In this document: one piece after another, positions 23,334 through 32,141 of the stretch | How the letters are laid out: every line of letters begins with the position of its first letter | Numbering within the stretch: the first letter of the stretch is position 1 | Origin: Planctomyces sp. | GTDB lineage: Bacteria > Planctomycetota > Planctomycetia > Planctomycetales > Planctomycetaceae | Direction: 5' to 3' | DNA length: 46,149 nucleotides | NCBI GenBank assembly: GCA_016795105.1 | Contig: JAEUIH010000059.1 | Coordinates: 1 to 46,149 of the forward strand | Program-made: the position numbers and the translations under genes | Notes under the pieces: generated by a model | Database searches by the model: none | What the model was told of the DNA's origin: nothing | The model's input: the letters and a program-made list of their open reading frames with translations, nothing else

Positions 23334-24677
23334 ATGCAGCGAATCACAAAAGGTTTAGACCTGCCCATTACGGGCGAACCGGAACAAAAAATCCAGCCTG
23401 GTCCTGGGGTCTCCCGCGTTGGAGTGATGGGGGCCGATTACGTTGGTATGAAGCCATCGATGCTGGTTCAACAGGGCGACCTGGTGAAAGCCGGACAGGC
23501 TTTGTTTTCCGACAAGAAAGCCGCAGGTGTCACCTACACTTCGCCGATCTCCGGGGTCGTTGCAGAGATCAATCGCGGAGAACAAAGGGTATTTCAGTCC
23601 GTGGTGATCGAGCGTTCTGGCGATGAACGCGTCGAGTTTCCGGTTCTGGCCCGGAAAGATTTTTCGTCCATTACTCGGCAGCAACTCGTCGAGGTGCTAT
23701 GCAATAGCGGACTTTGGGTGGGATTTCGAACGCGTCCCTACAGTCGAATCCCGGCGCCGGAAAGCTCTCCCCGTTCCATCTTCGTGACTGCGATCGACAC
23801 CAATCCGCTTGCTGTCGATCCTGCGATTGTGATCCATGATTATGAGCGAGATTTTGAAGTGGGCGTGCGATCGCTTTCGCTGCTCACTGACGGGCCCGTA
23901 TTCGTCTGCCGTCGGCCGGCAGTGCACCTGCCGGGAGATGATGCGCCACGTGTCCAAAGAGCTGAATTTGAAGGCCCACATCCGGCCGGCCTTCCAGGCA
24001 CACATATTCATTTCCTTGACCCGGCCGGCCCAAAAAAGACCGTTTGGCATATCAACTATCAGGACGTGATTGCAATCGGCCGCCTGGTGTCCTCAGGACA
24101 ATTCAGCTCGGACCGTGTGGTATCAATTGCTGGCCCCGGGGTTACTTCACCGCGAATTGTGCGGTGTCCGTTGGGTGCATCGATCTCGGAACTGACTGCC
24201 GGGGCGCTGGCAGTCGGCGACCAGCGAGTTATTTCGGGAAGTGTTCTGAGTGGTCGAGCCACATCAGCCGTCTGTCAGTTTCTTGGCCGATATCATCTTC
24301 AGATCTCGGTGCTGCCGGAAGGTCGCCAGAGAGAATTCCTTGGGTGGCTGGCCCCCGGATCGAATAAGTTTTCGGTGACACGAGTGTTTTCGTCTGTGTT
24401 GAATTCGGCGAAACGGTTTTCGTTTACCACATCGACCGAAGGCAGCAAACGGGCGATGGTGCCGATCGGGACGTACGAACACGTGATGCCTCTTGACATT
24501 ATTCCAACATTTTTACTGCGATCGCTGATCGTCGGAGACACCGATCAGGCACAAGCGCTGGGATGTCTGGAACTCGACGAAGAAGATCTTGCATTGTGCA
24601 CATTTGTATGTCCGGGCAAATATGAATACGGCCCGATCCTGAGAAAGGTTCTTACTCAGATCGAAAAGGACGGGTAA
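23334..24677 (+). CDS. nqrA: Na+-translocating NADH:quinone oxidoreductase subunit A
   Basis: A membrane-associated cytoplasmic subunit of the Na+-pumping NADH:quinone oxidoreductase, implicated in quinone binding. At 447 residues it matches the family (446 in Vibrio). Family features are the N-terminal [13 protein letters not shown], the biotinyl-lipoyl-like fold with [33 protein letters not shown], and the C-terminal [17 protein letters not shown]. It is the first gene of a complete, tightly packed nqrABCDEF set, 174 bases after lpdA. No terminator was seen in that gap, so read-through from the dehydrogenase genes is possible. Confidence 0.97.
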
Positions 24678-24685
24678 ACAGCGAC

Positions 24686-25949
<1,264 letters not shown>

Positions 25950-25960
<11 letters not shown>

Positions 25961-26801
25961 TTCCATTCAAAACACATTTCGAGTCGCGATCCTGCTGTGC
26001 CTTGTCTGCTCCGTCATGGTCTCCGTGACAGCAGTAGGACTGCGAGATACTCAACAGGCACAGAAGGAACGGTTCAGGCAGGAGAATATTCTGAAGGCTG
26101 CCGGACTCTGGGAACCAGGATTGAAAGCTGAATCCGTTTTCCGCGAGCAAATCCACACAGTTGTTGTGGATCTCGAAACAGACAAATCAACCGATCGTTT
26201 TGCTGCTGGTGCAAAAGAGCTTGACGTCAAATCGGCTATTCGAGATCGAAACCTGAGTCGCGCGGTTGATGGCAGTGACGAAACCGGAACAGATTTGGCA
26301 TCGATTGTTCGTCGGGAAACCTATGCCACGATCTACGAAGTCCGCGAAGATGGTCGCACGAAGACTCTGGTGCTTCCAATCCGAGGGTATGGACTCTGGT
26401 CAACATTGTGGGGATTTATCGCAATTGATTTCTCAACCGCTGACCCGGCACACCCATCATCGCTGAAGGTGAAAGGCCTGACGTACTTTCAGCACGCCGA
26501 GACACCTGGACTTGGGGGCGAAGTTGACAATGAGCTATGGAAAGCAAAGTGGCCGGGAAGACAGATCTTTGAAGATGACTGGTCGGTCGCGCTGGAGGTT
26601 TCGAAGACTCCTTCAAAAGATTCACAGGTGGACGCAATCTCCGGAGCAACTCTGACATCCAATGGAGTCACGAATATGCTGAAGTACTGGCTTGGCCCGA
26701 ATGGATTTGGTCCCTATGTCCAAAGTGTACTTGCAAAGAATGCGTCTGCTCCTGCCTCCCAACCGGAATCGGAAACCAGTATTCCGAAAGGTGAAAGGTG
26801 A
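25950..26801 (+). CDS. nqrC: Na+-translocating NADH:quinone oxidoreductase subunit C
   Basis: A 283-residue subunit with one N-terminal membrane helix (about 10-30) and a large periplasmic FMN-binding domain. The flavinylation site is [13 protein letters not shown], with the modified threonine near residue 234, a substrate for ApbE. It is slightly longer than the Vibrio protein (257). AGGAGG lies 10 bases upstream, inside nqrB. The stop codon lies in the ribosome site region of nqrD. Confidence 0.97.
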
Positions 26802-26807
26802 ATAAAC

Positions 26808-27434
26808 ATGGCAGAACCAACCGCCAAACAAGTCCTCGTTGACCCCCTGGTAAATAACAATCCGATTACTTTGCAGATTCTTGGATTGTGCAGCTCACTT
26901 GCTGTGACAACAAATATGCAGACCGCAGTGGTGATGTCCATCGCAGTCACCGCCGTAACTGCCTGTTCCAGTGCAGCTATAGCAGCGATTCGAAACTTCA
27001 TTCCGTCATCAATCAGAATCATCGTACAGATGACGGTAATCGCCACAATGGTCATTGTGGTGGATCAAATTCTTCAGGCCTATGCTTTCGCACTCAGTCA
27101 AAAGCTCTCCGTTTTTGTGGGACTCATTATTACGAACTGCATCGTGATGGGTCGCGCTGAGGCTTTCGCCATGAAGACGGGTCCATGGCTGAGCTTTCTT
27201 GATGGCATTGGAAATGGACTCGGATATAGCATCATTCTGTTGCTTGTCGGATTTGTTCGCGAACTTTCCGGTTCAGGAAAGCTGTTTGGAGTGACAATCC
27301 TGAAACCTGTAACCGAGGGCGGCTGGTATGTCACAAACGGCATGATGCTGATTTCACCAAGTGCTTTCTTTCTGATTGGCGCCATCGTTTGGGCGGTCAG
27401 AACCTGGAAGCCGGAACAGATCGAAAAGGAGTAA
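26808..27434 (+). CDS. nqrD: Na+-translocating NADH:quinone oxidoreductase subunit D
   Basis: A 208-residue membrane subunit with about six helices, homologous to NqrE. Together they form the membrane channel and hold the iron centre that NqrM is needed to assemble. Family segments are [18 protein letters not shown] (the Cys of this half helps bind iron in known structures), [19 protein letters not shown], and [14 protein letters not shown]. It starts 6 bases after the nqrC stop. Confidence 0.97.
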
Positions 27435-27441
27435 TCAGGCG

Positions 27442-28056
27442 ATGGAACATTACCTTAGCCTTTTTGTGAAATCGATATTTCCGGAAAACCTGGCCCTGGC
27501 GTTTTTTCTGGGCATGTGCACATTTCTGGCACTCTCGAAGAACGTAAAAACGGCCTTTAGTCTTGGTATCGCGGTGGCTTTGATTCAGGGAATTACCGTT
27601 CCCGTGAACAACTTGATTTTCCGCTATCTACTGCAGCCCGGTGCACTGGCATGGGCGGGTGAATCCCTTTCCGAACAGGATCTCAGCTTTGTTGGACTGA
27701 TCAGTTACATTGCTGTGATCGCCGCGATGGTTCAGATCCTGGAAATGGCGCTCGATCGATTCTTCCCTGCACTCTACAACACTCTGGGTATCTTTTTGCC
27801 GCTGATCACCGTCAACTGCGCTATCCTTGGCGGCACCCTGCTGATGGTTGAACGAAATCTCTCCTTTGCTGACAGTATCGTGTTCGGCTGGGGTTCCGGA
27901 ATTGGCTGGGGAATGGCCATCGTTGTTCTCGCCGGTATTCGTGAAAAACTGAAGTACAGCGATGTACCAGCGGGACTCCGTGGCCTCGGAATCACATTCA
28001 TTACCGTGGGCCTGATGGCACTTGCGTTTCAGTCGTTCTCAGGAATCAAGCTGTAG
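27442..28056 (+). CDS. nqrE: Na+-translocating NADH:quinone oxidoreductase subunit E
   Basis: A 204-residue membrane subunit paired with NqrD. Family segments are [40 protein letters not shown], and [14 protein letters not shown], the last carrying the conserved Cys. The ATG at 27442 lies 7 bases after the nqrD stop, with GGAG upstream; a longer frame beginning inside nqrD is a shadow extension. Confidence 0.97.
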
Positions 28057-28069
28057 GGTATTAAAGACG

Positions 28070-29296
28070 ATGAGTACCGCCATTATCCTGGGAGTTGTAA
28101 TGTTCACGGGGATCATCGTTGCACTTGTGTGCATGATCCTCGCCGCCCGCAAGCAGCTTGTGCCTGTGGGCGATGTGAAGATTACCATCAATCACCAGAA
28201 AGAAATCTCAGTCCCTGCCGGAGGTAAACTCCTCGGTGCATTGGCCGCCAACGGAATCTTCGTATCTTCTGCCTGTGGTGGCGGCGGAACCTGCGCTCAA
28301 TGTAAAGTGAAGGTCTTTGCCGGCGGTGGTGAGATCCTCGCCACAGAAAAATCTCACATTAATAAGAAGCAGGAACGCGAAGGCTGCCGACTCTCCTGTC
28401 AGGTTGCTGTCAAGCAGAACATGGAGATTGAAGTTCCCGAAGAAGTCTTTGGGACTCGCAAATGGAACTGCACTGTTCGTTCAAACGACAATGTGGCAAC
28501 GTTCATCAAAGAGCTTGTGCTCGAACTGCCACCGGGTGAGGATGTCGACTTCAAGGCAGGTGGATACATTCAAATTGAATGCCCCGCTCATCATGTCAAA
28601 TATGCTGACTTTGCAGTTGCGCCTGAGTATCGCGGGGACTGGGATAAGTTCAATCTCTGGGAGATCGAGTCTGTTGTAACAGAACCAGTGATCCGAGCTT
28701 ACTCGATGGCCAACTATCCTGGCGAGAAGGGCATTATTATGCTCAACGTGCGTGTCGCCACGCCGCCACCGAGGTCCCCAAAAGGAACTCCACCGGGCAA
28801 AATGTCGTCGTTTATTTTTAACCTGAAGCCCGGTGACAAAGTCACGATTTCAGGCCCATACGGTGAATTTTTCATCAAGGACACGCCCGCAGAAAAGATT
28901 TACATCGGGGGAGGCGCCGGCATGGCACCACTTCGATCTCATATCTTTGAACTCTTCCGAACAATGGATACCAAATGCAAGGTGTCGTACTGGTACGGTG
29001 GACGCAGTGTCCGGGAGTTGTTCTACCTTGAAGACTTCCATGAACTGGAGAAGAACCACCCGAACTTTAAGCTGAATATTGCTCTCTCTGAACCTCAGCC
29101 TGAAGACAACTGGACGGGACTCAAGGGGTTTATTCACAAGGTGCTGCTTGATGAATACCTCTCAAAGCATCCGGCACCAGAGGACTGCGAATACTATATC
29201 TGCGGGCCGCCGATGATGCTGAAGGCCGTGACGGATACCCTGAGAAGCCTTGGGGTCGAACCCGAGAACATCGCATACGACGACTTTGGGGGTTAG
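28070..29296 (+). CDS. nqrF: Na+-translocating NADH:quinone oxidoreductase subunit F
   Basis: The NADH-oxidising subunit, 408 residues as in Vibrio. An N-terminal membrane helix (about 5-25) is followed by a 2Fe-2S ferredoxin domain with cysteines at 69, 75, 78 and 110 ([11 protein letters not shown] and GCRLSC). The FAD domain includes [13 protein letters not shown], and the NADH domain includes [15 protein letters not shown] and YICGPPMM. The C-terminus ends in the usual YDDFGG. The ATG at 28070 is 13 bases past nqrE. A strong terminator follows 27 bases after the stop. Confidence 0.98.
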
Positions 29297-29323
29297 TTCA
29301 GAATTCTGCAATGCTTCGCAGGA

Positions 29324-29360
29324 AACCCCGGTACAATTCTTTGTACCGGGGTTCTTTTTT
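29324..29360 (+). terminator. Strong rho-independent terminator after nqrF
   Basis: A perfect 12-bp stem (AACCCCGGTACA, 29324-29335, with its complement at 29342-29353), a 6-base loop, then C and six T residues (29355-29360). It is the most convincing terminator in the window. The next start codon, of the ApbE-NqrM gene, is only 19 bases past the T-run. Confidence 0.93.
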
Positions 29361-29379
29361 GCACACTGGAAATTCCACC

Positions 29380-30702
29380 ATGGCTCTGCGATTTACCCAA
29401 TCTCTGCTGTTCGTTCTGATTCTGACCAGCTCGGTATGTGCACAGACGGATCCAACCGAAACTTCGGCTCCGCTGAAAATCACGGGCGAGACGATGGGTA
29501 CCTACTACAGTGTCGTGATCGAATCACCTGGAACGAAAACTGCCGACGAAGTCAAATCGAAGATCGAGAGTACTCTTGCTGAATTCAGTCGGCAGATGTC
29601 GACCTGGGATCCGAATTCAGAGATTTCTCTGTTCAATCAGTCGCGATCAACGGACTGGTTTCCTGTCAGTGCCGACTTTGCGTTCGTGGTCAGTGAATCG
29701 CTGAGAATCCACTCGTTGAGTGATGGGATCTTTGATCCAACTCTGGCCCCTCTGATCGAAGCATGGGGGTTCGGGAAATCGAAGACTCGGAAGGTGCCAT
29801 CAAATGAGGAGCTATCCAGTGCGTTGAGCAATATTGGTATGAGAAACATCGAGGTACGTCTCGATCCTCCCGCAATCCGAAAGACAAAGCCCGAAGTCTC
29901 GATCAATCTATCAGCAATTGCTCCTGGTTTTGGAATTGATGCTGTCGCTGAAATGTTGACAAAGGAAGGCTTTGAACGCTGGCTCGTTGATATTGGTGGC
30001 GAAGCAAGGGCGGGAAATCGAAAGTTGTCCGGATCGCTCTGGAAAATCGGCGTTGAATCACCTCTCGGTGGAATTCACAAAATTGTTGAACTTGAAAACA
30101 AGGGCATCGCCACATCGGGAGACTACAGAAACTTCTTTGTCATGGATGGTGTTCGGTATTCGCATGTCCTTGACCCGCGGACAGGCCGCCCCGTGCCCAA
30201 TCCGCCCGCATCAGTTTCGATTCTGCACAGTTCGAACATGACCGCAGACGCATTGGCAACGACACTGATGGCTCTCGGCGTCGAGAAGGGTATGCAGCTG
30301 GCAGAACGAGAAAAACTCGACGTTATGTTCCTCGACGTGGACGCCAACGGCAAGGTCATTGAAACGTCTCGCGGGGCATTCGCCAGCCCCAAATCTCAAG
30401 AGACCGCATCGCTGCCCCCCGCCATCATGTCGTCCGGCGCTCTCACACCATCCTCCGTCGCCAATCAAGGCAACCCGAAACCCGCAGAAACCACCAACAG
30501 CACCTTACAGGACCTTGCAATTCCGGCAGGAGCAGCACTCGGAATCTTTTTGCTGGCACTATTGGGAATGTCCGTAGGAGCAATCTTCAACAAGAAGCAA
30601 CTCAAGGGCAGCTGCGGTGGCCTCGCATCTCTCGGCGACGGTAAAGGCGGCTCCCCCTGCGAAGTCTGCAACAAACCCAAAGAAGACTGCCCCAAAGTTT
30701 AA
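29380..30702 (+). CDS. ApbE flavin transferase fused to NqrM
   Basis: A 440-residue fusion. An N-terminal signal peptide (MALRFTQSLLFVLILTSSVCAQ-like, cleaved near VCA) leads to a periplasmic ApbE domain (about 30-340), which attaches FMN to threonine of NqrB and NqrC: TMGTYYSVVI, NLSAIAPGFGIDAVAEML, VDIGGEARAG, HVLDPRTGRPVP and NMTADALATTLMALG. After a low-complexity linker comes one membrane helix (about 386-408) and a Cys-rich tail with KKQLKGSCGGL, CEVC and EDC. This tail matches NqrM (DUF539), the factor needed to load iron into Nqr, including its four cysteines. The topology fits: ApbE outside, NqrM cysteines inside. The start at 29380 lies just behind the nqr terminator; an earlier ATG would translate the terminator and is rejected. 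The stop codon lies in a dispersed repeat. Confidence 0.92.
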   Translation: MALRFTQSLLFVLILTSSVCAQTDPTETSAPLKITGETMGTYYSVVIESPGTKTADEVKSKIESTLAEFSRQMSTWDPNSEISLFNQSRSTDWFPVSADFAFVVSESLRIHSLSDGIFDPTLAPLIEAWGFGKSKTRKVPSNEELSSALSNIGMRNIEVRLDPPAIRKTKPEVSINLSAIAPGFGIDAVAEMLTKEGFERWLVDIGGEARAGNRKLSGSLWKIGVESPLGGIHKIVELENKGIATSGDYRNFFVMDGVRYSHVLDPRTGRPVPNPPASVSILHSSNMTADALATTLMALGVEKGMQLAEREKLDVMFLDVDANGKVIETSRGAFASPKSQETASLPPAIMSSGALTPSSVANQGNPKPAETTNSTLQDLAIPAGAALGIFLLALLGMSVGAIFNKKQLKGSCGGLASLGDGKGGSPCEVCNKPKEDCPKV

Positions 30703-30750
30703 CGGCAAGCCGCAGGCGTCAGCGCAGTTTAGCGGCAAGCCGCAGGCGTC
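30696..30750. repeat. Two copies of a GCGGCAAGCCGC hairpin repeat
   Basis: Two 25-bp units (30696-30720 and 30726-30750) that differ at one base, sharing GCAAGCCGCAGGCGTC and separated by 5 bases. The core can fold (GCGGC-AA-GCCGC in the second unit). The first unit contains the TAA stop codon of the ApbE-NqrM gene. The pair lies between convergent genes. Confidence 0.88.
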
Positions 30751-30791
30751 CGTAACACATCCGCTCCGCTCAGATTCCCCTATCCAAAACC

Positions 30792-32141
30792 TCAGGCACG
30801 ACTTCGATCCAGCAAACACGCAACAAGCAGGATCACTCCCAGTGCAATCTTCTGATCGAAAGAGCCCAGCCCGATCAGATTCATACCATTGCCAATGACT
30901 GCGATCATGATGGCACCGGTCAGGGTTCCGAGCACCCGTCCTTCGCCACCCATGAGTGATGTTCCACCCACGACAACGGCGGCAATCACTTCCATTTCAT
31001 ACATCAGACCGAATGTGGGATTTCCGGCTCCCAGTTTCGATGCCAGAAGTATTCCGCTGACCCCGGATAATGTTCCAGCGATCGCATAGGTCAGGATCAG
31101 CGACCAGCGGACACGAATCCCGGCAAGCCGCGCGCCTTCGCGGTTTCCTCCAATGGCATACAGGATTCGCCCGACGACGGAGTACTTCATCACACAATGA
31201 GCCATGACATAGAGGCACACCATGACAACGATTGGCATCGGCAGCCCAAACGAGAATTCAGTACCCGGAACTTTGATGCCGATCGTTCCTCCCGGTGATT
31301 TGAATACGGCTGGTACCTGATCAAAGGAACCACCGTCGGAAATCCGAAATGCGATTCCGCTGGCAATCATCATCATCGCCAGTGTCGCAATAAATGGTGG
31401 AAGCTTTCCTATCGTCACAAGAACGCCGTTCATAAGTCCCATGGCTGTCGTCAGCAAAACTGCCGCTGTCATCGCCATGATGACGAACCCAACAGAGGCC
31501 GACGTTCCCTGTCCGTAGTTCTGAATCAGGAGTGTTGAAACGACCGCCGACAAAGCCACCAGCGAACCAACACTCAGATCGATCCCGCCTGTGATGACGA
31601 CCATCGTCATCCCAATCGCAACAATTGCTGATATTGCAGCCTGATCCAGAATCACAAGGATGTTGGAGAACTTCAGGAAATTCGGCCAGTCGTAGGGGCG
31701 TGGTGAATAGCACCGCTGAACTCCGATCTCCGGCATTCGTTCCCAGAACGGCCAACCCGCAGAAATCCCGCTGCAGCCCACAGCATCAATTTTCTGCCCC
31801 TGATCCAAAAGTGTCTGGACTGCACTTCTGACGTCAGACGGACGTCCTGCAATCACACCAACAACTTCTACTCCGCGATCCTGCAGCGTTGATGCCAGCG
31901 ACTGGGCCATCAGCTTGTCTGCGTCACTGGCGGGGAAGGCCACGAAAACTCGGGCCTCGGTTCCGGCTGCTTCCACAATCAGATCAGCAACCTGCCGAAC
32001 GGCCTCTGAGCCTTCCGGATACTGAGTCGCGATCGTGGCTCGACTAAACAACACAACAAGCGCCAGCAGAACAAGAATGGTTCCATAGTTTTTCAGCACA
32101 AAGCTGAGCCGGCCGCGGAAGTTGGTCTGCATTGCTGCCAT
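30792..32141 (-). CDS. Sugar ABC transporter permease (RbsC type) with inserted domain
   Basis: A 449-residue inner-membrane permease of the ribose/galactose/xylose class. Family segments are GGIDLSVGSLVALSAVVST, IATLAMMMIASGIAF, AIGGNREGARLAGI and VVGGTSLMGGEG-RVLGTLTGA. Usual members have about 320-340 residues. Here about 105 extra residues (roughly 38-145) lie between the first membrane helix and the rest; they are hydrophilic, without helices, and alpha/beta-like (ARVFVAFPASDADKLMAQ, GVEVVGVIAGRPSDVRSAV). The insertion should face the periplasm and resembles part of a substrate-binding fold. AGGA lies 8 bases before the ATG. It follows the ATPase gene by 2 bases. Substrate not determined. 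Confidence 0.92.
   Translation of the reverse strand: MAAMQTNFRGRLSFVLKNYGTILVLLALVVLFSRATIATQYPEGSEAVRQVADLIVEAAGTEARVFVAFPASDADKLMAQSLASTLQDRGVEVVGVIAGRPSDVRSAVQTLLDQGQKIDAVGCSGISAGWPFWERMPEIGVQRCYSPRPYDWPNFLKFSNILVILDQAAISAIVAIGMTMVVITGGIDLSVGSLVALSAVVSTLLIQNYGQGTSASVGFVIMAMTAAVLLTTAMGLMNGVLVTIGKLPPFIATLAMMMIASGIAFRISDGGSFDQVPAVFKSPGGTIGIKVPGTEFSFGLPMPIVVMVCLYVMAHCVMKYSVVGRILYAIGGNREGARLAGIRVRWSLILTYAIAGTLSGVSGILLASKLGAGNPTFGLMYEMEVIAAVVVGGTSLMGGEGRVLGTLTGAIMIAVIGNGMNLIGLGSFDQKIALGVILLVACLLDRSRA

Follow-up and report, generated by a model that had tools for sequence, protein, structure and literature searches.

The sodium-pumping respiratory enzyme NQR is believed to receive its flavin and its iron with the help of two proteins, ApbE and NqrM, which are usually studied apart. 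To our knowledge, how and in what order NQR gains its flavins and its iron centre is poorly understood. In the window (the whole stretch of 46,149 nucleotides that was analysed), one reading frame downstream of the nqr genes encodes both an ApbE domain and an NqrM domain, which raises the question of whether a single protein has taken the place of two separate factors and could serve both maturation steps of the same complex.

The nqr locus and its predicted ApbE-NqrM protein

The features of the locus, all on the forward strand, are the following:

23334-24677, + strand: nqrA (PF24836, PF05896, PF11973)
24686-25960, + strand: nqrB (NCBIfam NF003756, E 2.4e-180; TIGR01937, E 1.3e-166)
25950-26801, + strand: nqrC (PF04205; TIGR01938, E 1.1e-59)
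26808-27434, + strand: nqrD (TIGR01939, E 2.6e-92)
27442-28056, + strand: nqrE (TIGR01940, E 2.9e-94, queried from 27376; start inferred from MEHYLS)
28070-29296, + strand: nqrF (PF00175, PF00111, PF00970, queried from 28022; start inferred)
29324-29353, + strand: terminator-like hairpin of 13 pairs, then CTTTTTTG, between nqrF and the fusion gene
29380-30702, + strand: apbE-nqrM fusion gene (440 aa; ATG at 29380 to the stop at 30702)
29380-29442, + strand: likely signal peptide (residues 1 to about 21, hydrophobic, SSVCA end; read from the translation)
29494-30330, + strand: ApbE flavin transferase domain (residues 39-317; PF02424, E 4.8e-83)
30394-30504, + strand: flexible linker of about 40 residues (residues 339-375; pLDDT below 50 over most of its length)
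30517-30588, + strand: single transmembrane helix (residues 380-403; pLDDT about 90; hydropathy and AlphaFold2 model)
30583-30696, + strand: NqrM domain (C412, C427, C430 and C437; PF04400 match in the whole-genome search)

The client complex is present as a full nqrABCDEF set, with FMN threonine motifs in NqrB and NqrC and paired cysteines in NqrD and NqrE. The NqrB motif (SGPT) starts at residue 236 (window 25391) and the NqrC motif (SGAT) at residue 231 (window 26640), and both are presumably the expected FMN-threonine sites. In a by-eye comparison, C28 and C111 of NqrD and C26 and C126 of NqrE were found in the same sequence context as both cysteines of the corresponding Vibrio xiamenensis proteins, while a third NqrD cysteine, C53, has no counterpart in V. 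xiamenensis NqrD. The initial annotation, which was made from the letters of the DNA, had placed the fusion directly after nqrABCDEF, and this is right as gene order, since nqrA to nqrF occupy 23334-29296 on the same strand.

The fusion itself is confirmed at 29380-30702, with both domains above their curated Pfam cut-offs, as that annotation had assigned them. The mechanical open reading frame starts earlier, at the ATG at 29311, and this longer version would traverse the terminator-like hairpin. PF02424 matches over its whole length (profile positions 1-266 of 266, 279.2 bits, above the cut-off), residues 32-319 match solved ApbEs by sequence (6nxi, E 9.5e-68), and the predicted structure matches the fold of 6nxi among the solved ApbEs (E 6.6e-33). 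PF04400 matches residues 402-434 (profile positions 2-27 of 43) with 25.3 bits against a cut-off of 22, and with 27.9 bits when the last 110 residues are searched alone, so that the tail, which had been proposed to be NqrM, is recognized as such by Pfam. The other Pfam match to the tail is TrbC alone, well under the TrbC cut-off; in an NCBIfam search the tail had no match and the whole protein matched one ApbE model, below its cut-off. The tail contains the motifs KGSCGGL, CEVC and EDC, which hold C412, C427, C430 and C437.

Hydropathy revealed one hydrophobic stretch besides the N-terminus (19-residue windows starting from 376-387), followed by NKKQLK, so the tail motifs and the one membrane helix described in the annotation are both found. 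The AlphaFold2 model, built on an alignment of 48 fusions (A3), is confident in the ApbE core, contains a helix at residues 2-17 (the signal-peptide region) and predicts the cysteine tail poorly. The protein is predicted to have an N-out/C-in topology, with ApbE outside and the cysteines inside, because positive charge follows the helix (NKKQLKGSCGG) and an exported ApbE precedes it; the periplasmic ApbE and cytoplasmic cysteines proposed earlier agree, as a prediction, with hydropathy and model.

Expression of the gene is less clear. The 104-nt stretch with the hairpin folds better than expected (z -4.59; 0 of 200 shuffles as good), although a terminator scan of 2.1 kb found three terminator-like sites where shuffled sequences gave 2.2 on average, and no sigma-70-like promoter was found in window 28900-31000. 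Co-transcription of the fusion gene with nqrA-nqrF is uncertain, because the hairpin at 29324-29353 separates nqrF from it; the hairpin may lower the ratio of maturation factor to NQR enzyme. In our own hairpin scan (at least 7 pairs), a hairpin was present at the nqrF/fusion position in 4 of 21 loci, fused or separate, those besides the window being in G257, G205 and G327. Just past the stop codon of the fusion gene (window 30701-30750), A(A/G)CGGCAAGCCGCAGGCGTC occurs twice, 30 bases apart. The exact 20-base repeat unit has 16 copies on 13 contigs of the window's genome and none in a reversed control, which identifies it as a dispersed repeat.

Distribution and history of the fusion

NqrM was detected at E up to 0.001 in 79 of 170 genomes of the window's family, and 47 of these 79, among them the two further genomes of the window's genus with NqrM (G398 and G399), carry ApbE and NqrM in one frame. 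Recurrence in 47 family genomes rules out chance as the source of the fusion, which replaces a separate nqrM in many of the planctomycetes surveyed, in line with the initial annotation. For the other 32 of the 79, the genes are separate in 31 (16 by an open frame of 74-140 aa alone and 15 checked gene by gene) and one (G418) is unsettled. A long open frame alone was rejected as proof of fusion, as in G025 such a frame is 456 aa long and ApbE lies in another frame. In another genome (G426, locus L201) ApbE and NqrM lie in different frames and the ApbE frame is short, while the four other members of its genus with NqrM have the fusion; a frameshift, an error or a split are candidate causes of this break.

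The fusion takes up the place of free NqrM in the genomes that have it. In the family, each of the 47 fused genomes was listed with a single NqrM at E up to 0.001, in a search whose first pass scored at most 33 candidates per genome. In the window's own genome (G000; 8.9 Mb, 99.96% complete), a PF04400 search at E up to 10 gave 26.9 bits for the fusion and 10-11.5 bits for the next three matches, which were rejected as a second NqrM against the cut-off of 22; the fusion is thus the sole PF04400 match above the cut-off, and no separate nqrM was found elsewhere in this genome, as the proposed fusion implied. The genome encodes one NqrD/NqrE pair and two ApbEs, the fused one and another (L035) at C325:26473-27258, off the nqr contig, so that flavin transfer in the cell may not depend on the fused ApbE alone.

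NqrM and NQR go together. In the family, 75 of 80 nqrA-positive genomes have NqrM and only 4 of 90 nqrA-negative genomes do (Fisher p 2e-36, kinship not corrected for); conversely, nqrA is present in 75 of the 79 NqrM-bearing genomes. The phylum was sampled with 392 genomes. Of these, 63 matched a profile built from 28 NqrM tails (A2) with an E of 0.01 or less, six of the matches having an E above 1e-4, and Pfam's own NqrM model matched 36. In this sample nqrA was present in 65 genomes: 57 had both genes, 8 had nqrA alone and 6 had NqrM alone, with a few weak ones among the NqrM matches. Further fusions were found in a genome of another family (G274) and in five loci whose tails match none of the other tails read (L056, L057, L067, L068 and L088); named Pirellulaceae, for example Rhodopirellula solitaria, also carry the fusion. 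L038, L039 and L066 (identical tails) and L044 (identical ApbE) apparently come from genomes already counted.

There are exceptions to this association. Five genomes of the family have nqrA without detectable NqrM (G024, G525, G412, G458 and G445). The first of them, G024 (L148), is a single contig with complete nqrA-F and no nqr-linked ApbE; a search with profile A1 found two ApbEs in it, about 32% identical to the fused ApbE of its genus, and no tail. Three other members of its genus are fused, G525 likewise has nqrA without NqrM, and flank synteny of G024 gave scattered matches. NqrM may be dispensable or replaceable, because this one-contig genome has NQR without detectable NqrM; alternatively, a divergent NqrM was missed. 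NqrM without nqrA was found in four genomes of the family, two of them 65-72% and two 90-94% complete. Finally, G361 has an nqr-linked ApbE and a separate and distant NqrM, and in G357, which also has an nqr-linked ApbE, the only NqrM match is doubtful.

Linkage to nqrA was also compared. Of the 31 genomes with separate nqrM, 22 have it no more than 30 kb from nqrA, 2 far off on the same contig and 6 on another contig, nqrA not being found in the remaining one. In the 44 fused genomes with nqrA, the fused gene is linked to it in 19, lies 137 kb to 3.1 Mb off on the same contig in 4 and is on another contig in 21, which is little proof of distance, as the assemblies are drafts. In the four distant same-contig cases the fused gene is out of the operon, yet still alongside NQR in the genome.

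Among the best-ranked loci, those outside the phylum keep the genes apart, although rarer or more distant fusions may lie beyond this ranking. In a scan of one genome per species, in which the best 80 of 590 confirmed relatives were taken, ranked by similarity to the fusion, 59 loci had both genes: 9 fused and 3 separate in Planctomycetota and 47 separate elsewhere, so that apbE and nqrM are separate in 47 of 47 loci having both outside the phylum. The other 21 of the best 80 loci were without NqrM at E up to 0.001.

The arrangement of separate pairs suggests how short the way to a fusion is. In 8 of 21 pairs, the stop codon of apbE and the start codon of nqrM share bases in an ATGA, and in another 8 of 21 nqrM is open in the frame of apbE directly past the apbE stop; this last figure tells no more than that the two genes stand close to a fusion, because one third of pairs is expected to share a frame by chance and most of those 8 are close relatives. 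A tree built from five NQR subunits (NqrA, B, D, E and F; 49 rows, of which 12 are fused; a short search with one support measure) requires five changes of the fused label, and starred branches force five; without the rows lacking ApbE or NqrM, four changes are required. The ApbE tree (53 rows, of which 17 are fused and two of these identical) also requires five, of which starred branches force just two; some long branches meet in it, and the grouping of all fusions in a single clade is rejected weakly (AU p 0.047). These changes of state, in which gains and losses are not distinguishable, number about four or five on the trees and make it likely that there were several fusions, or fusions followed by splits.

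Proposed function and alternative readings

Conservation was read from the A3 alignment, which comprises 48 of the 56 fused sequences collected, leaving out L211, L214, L233, L238, L240, L038, L039 and L066 (partial, duplicate, near-copy or N-bearing). H262, D290, A293 and T294 of the ApbE domain are invariant in all 48, H262 aligns with the SH of 6nxi, and ATSG(D/N)YRN and SHxxDPxTG are kept in an 8-row alignment; we take H262, D290 and T294 to be ApbE active-site residues. Residue 182 (window 29923-29925) is a proline here and otherwise only in G399, of the same genus. In the tail, C412, C427 and C430 are invariant (48/48), P433 is kept in 47/48 and C437 in 46/48. A divergent lineage of fusions (G531, G533 and G408; L239-L241) keeps GSCGG with altered spacing of the later cysteines; in these three and in G532, as far as it is readable, the fourth cysteine is absent from its usual place and another lies earlier. 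The SCGG cysteine of the window aligns with C33 of V. xiamenensis NqrM (L116; cysteines 33, 45, 47 and 51). In V. harveyi NqrM, Kostyrko et al. reportedly found C33 to be essential, changes of the other cysteines merely lowering the yield.

We hold with good confidence that the apbE-nqrM gene is a fusion of both dedicated Na+-NQR maturation factors and that its product is most likely bifunctional, an interpretation already offered by the initial annotation and supported here. The exported ApbE part would act as an FAD:protein FMN transferase in the periplasm, where the SGxT threonines of NqrB and NqrC would receive FMN from it; the linker, about 40 residues long, would connect it to one N-out/C-in helix and the NqrM tail, whose four cytoplasmic cysteines could help to build the iron centre between NqrD and NqrE. 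As the genome's sole NqrM found, the fusion would stand in for the free protein. The order of ApbE, helix and cysteines, with NKKQLK after the helix, fits the expected topology. While the domains, the one-helix topology as a prediction, the kept cysteines, the stand-in for free NqrM and the association with NQR are read directly from the data, catalytic activity, the iron role and a physical coupling of the two steps are what we infer from them: iron delivery by the tail is carried over, by analogy, from work on free NqrM, and one chain might service both sides of one complex at once. Counted against the bifunctional reading are the genomes with NQR and no NqrM, those with NqrM and no nqrA, the second ApbE, the proline at position 182, the cysteine spacing and the hairpin.

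A bolder extension of this reading, which we regard as possible but doubtful, is that a single membrane-spanning factor docks once on nascent NqrBCDE, so that flavin attachment outside and iron-centre assembly inside would be ordered and coupled, and that planctomycetes reached this solution repeatedly because the steps are coupled in all NQR bacteria using both factors.

The tail could instead be a mere membrane anchor for ApbE, derived from NqrM and no longer involved in iron-centre assembly. Anchoring alone might be useful, as ApbE is termed a membrane-bound enzyme in a 2025 review (PMC12052999), and some genomes with NQR manage without detectable NqrM. An anchor needs no cysteines, however, yet three are invariant and the fourth nearly so while the linker between the domains varies across the fusions, and no other NqrM is listed in any fused genome of the family, so we consider this reading improbable. 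A further possibility is that NqrM is set free from the one frame, through an internal start or by cleavage, so that the fusion would be genetic only. Coupled translation may be ancestral, given the ATGA overlap of separate pairs, and in 21 of the 56 fused sequences the 55 codons ahead of the tail include an in-frame start codon (ATG, GTG or TTG) accompanied by a purine-rich site. Such an ATG, however, occurs in only 10 of the 56 (which include near-duplicates), its positions are scattered, and the window is without any such internal start; a conserved internal start was rejected on these counts, and separate products appear quite improbable. That sequencing or assembly error deleted a stop codon, for which the in-frame separate pairs would provide a ready template, is practically negligible as an explanation and is refuted by the recurrence of the fusion in 47 family genomes and in named Pirellulaceae, with a linker between the domains.

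The fusion is of moderate interest, as it lets the coupling between two steps of NQR assembly be put to a direct test. Its recurrence is gene-fusion evidence that ApbE and NqrM act at one place and time, even where they are separate. The fusion also fixes the ApbE:NqrM ratio and the topology, and is therefore a handy tool, in which one gene with separable mutations tests the mutual dependence of both steps.

Relation to known systems

No report of an ApbE-NqrM fusion was found in the literature searched, which did not take in the founding NqrM and V. cholerae nqrM papers, and the fusion is not described in the available portions of PMC12174285, PMC6209661, PMC12052999, PMC8238504 and PMC12682751. 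Domain databases very likely already list the architecture; the fusion is new as a variant of parts, ApbE and NqrM, that are already known. A search for a solved NqrM structure gave one chance-level match (E 0.68).

With ApbE (PF02424; V. cholerae 6nxi, E. coli 4xgv) the fusion shares the whole catalytic domain, its motifs and its fold, but in the separate loci examined ApbE ends after this domain, whereas the fusion adds a membrane helix and the NqrM tail. The other fused ApbEs have lysine at position 182 in 46 of the 48 aligned, in contrast to the proline of the window's protein. With NqrM (PF04400, formerly DUF539) it shares one helix, G(S/T)CGG, three more cysteines and the company of nqr genes. 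Free NqrM is a separate small protein, while here there is an NqrM domain at the C-terminal end of ApbE rather than an NqrM protein, and the cysteines are spaced C-x14-C-x2-C-x6-C, as against C33, C45, C47 and C51 in Vibrio NqrM. A further parallel is found in trypanosomatids, where ApbE is joined to fumarate reductase, its target enzyme, in the cell interior, and both mentions of "fused" in the 2025 ApbE review concern this enzyme (PMC12052999). In both cases ApbE is joined to a protein of the same pathway, but the partner differs, being the target enzyme in trypanosomatids and, here, a second maturation factor across the membrane.
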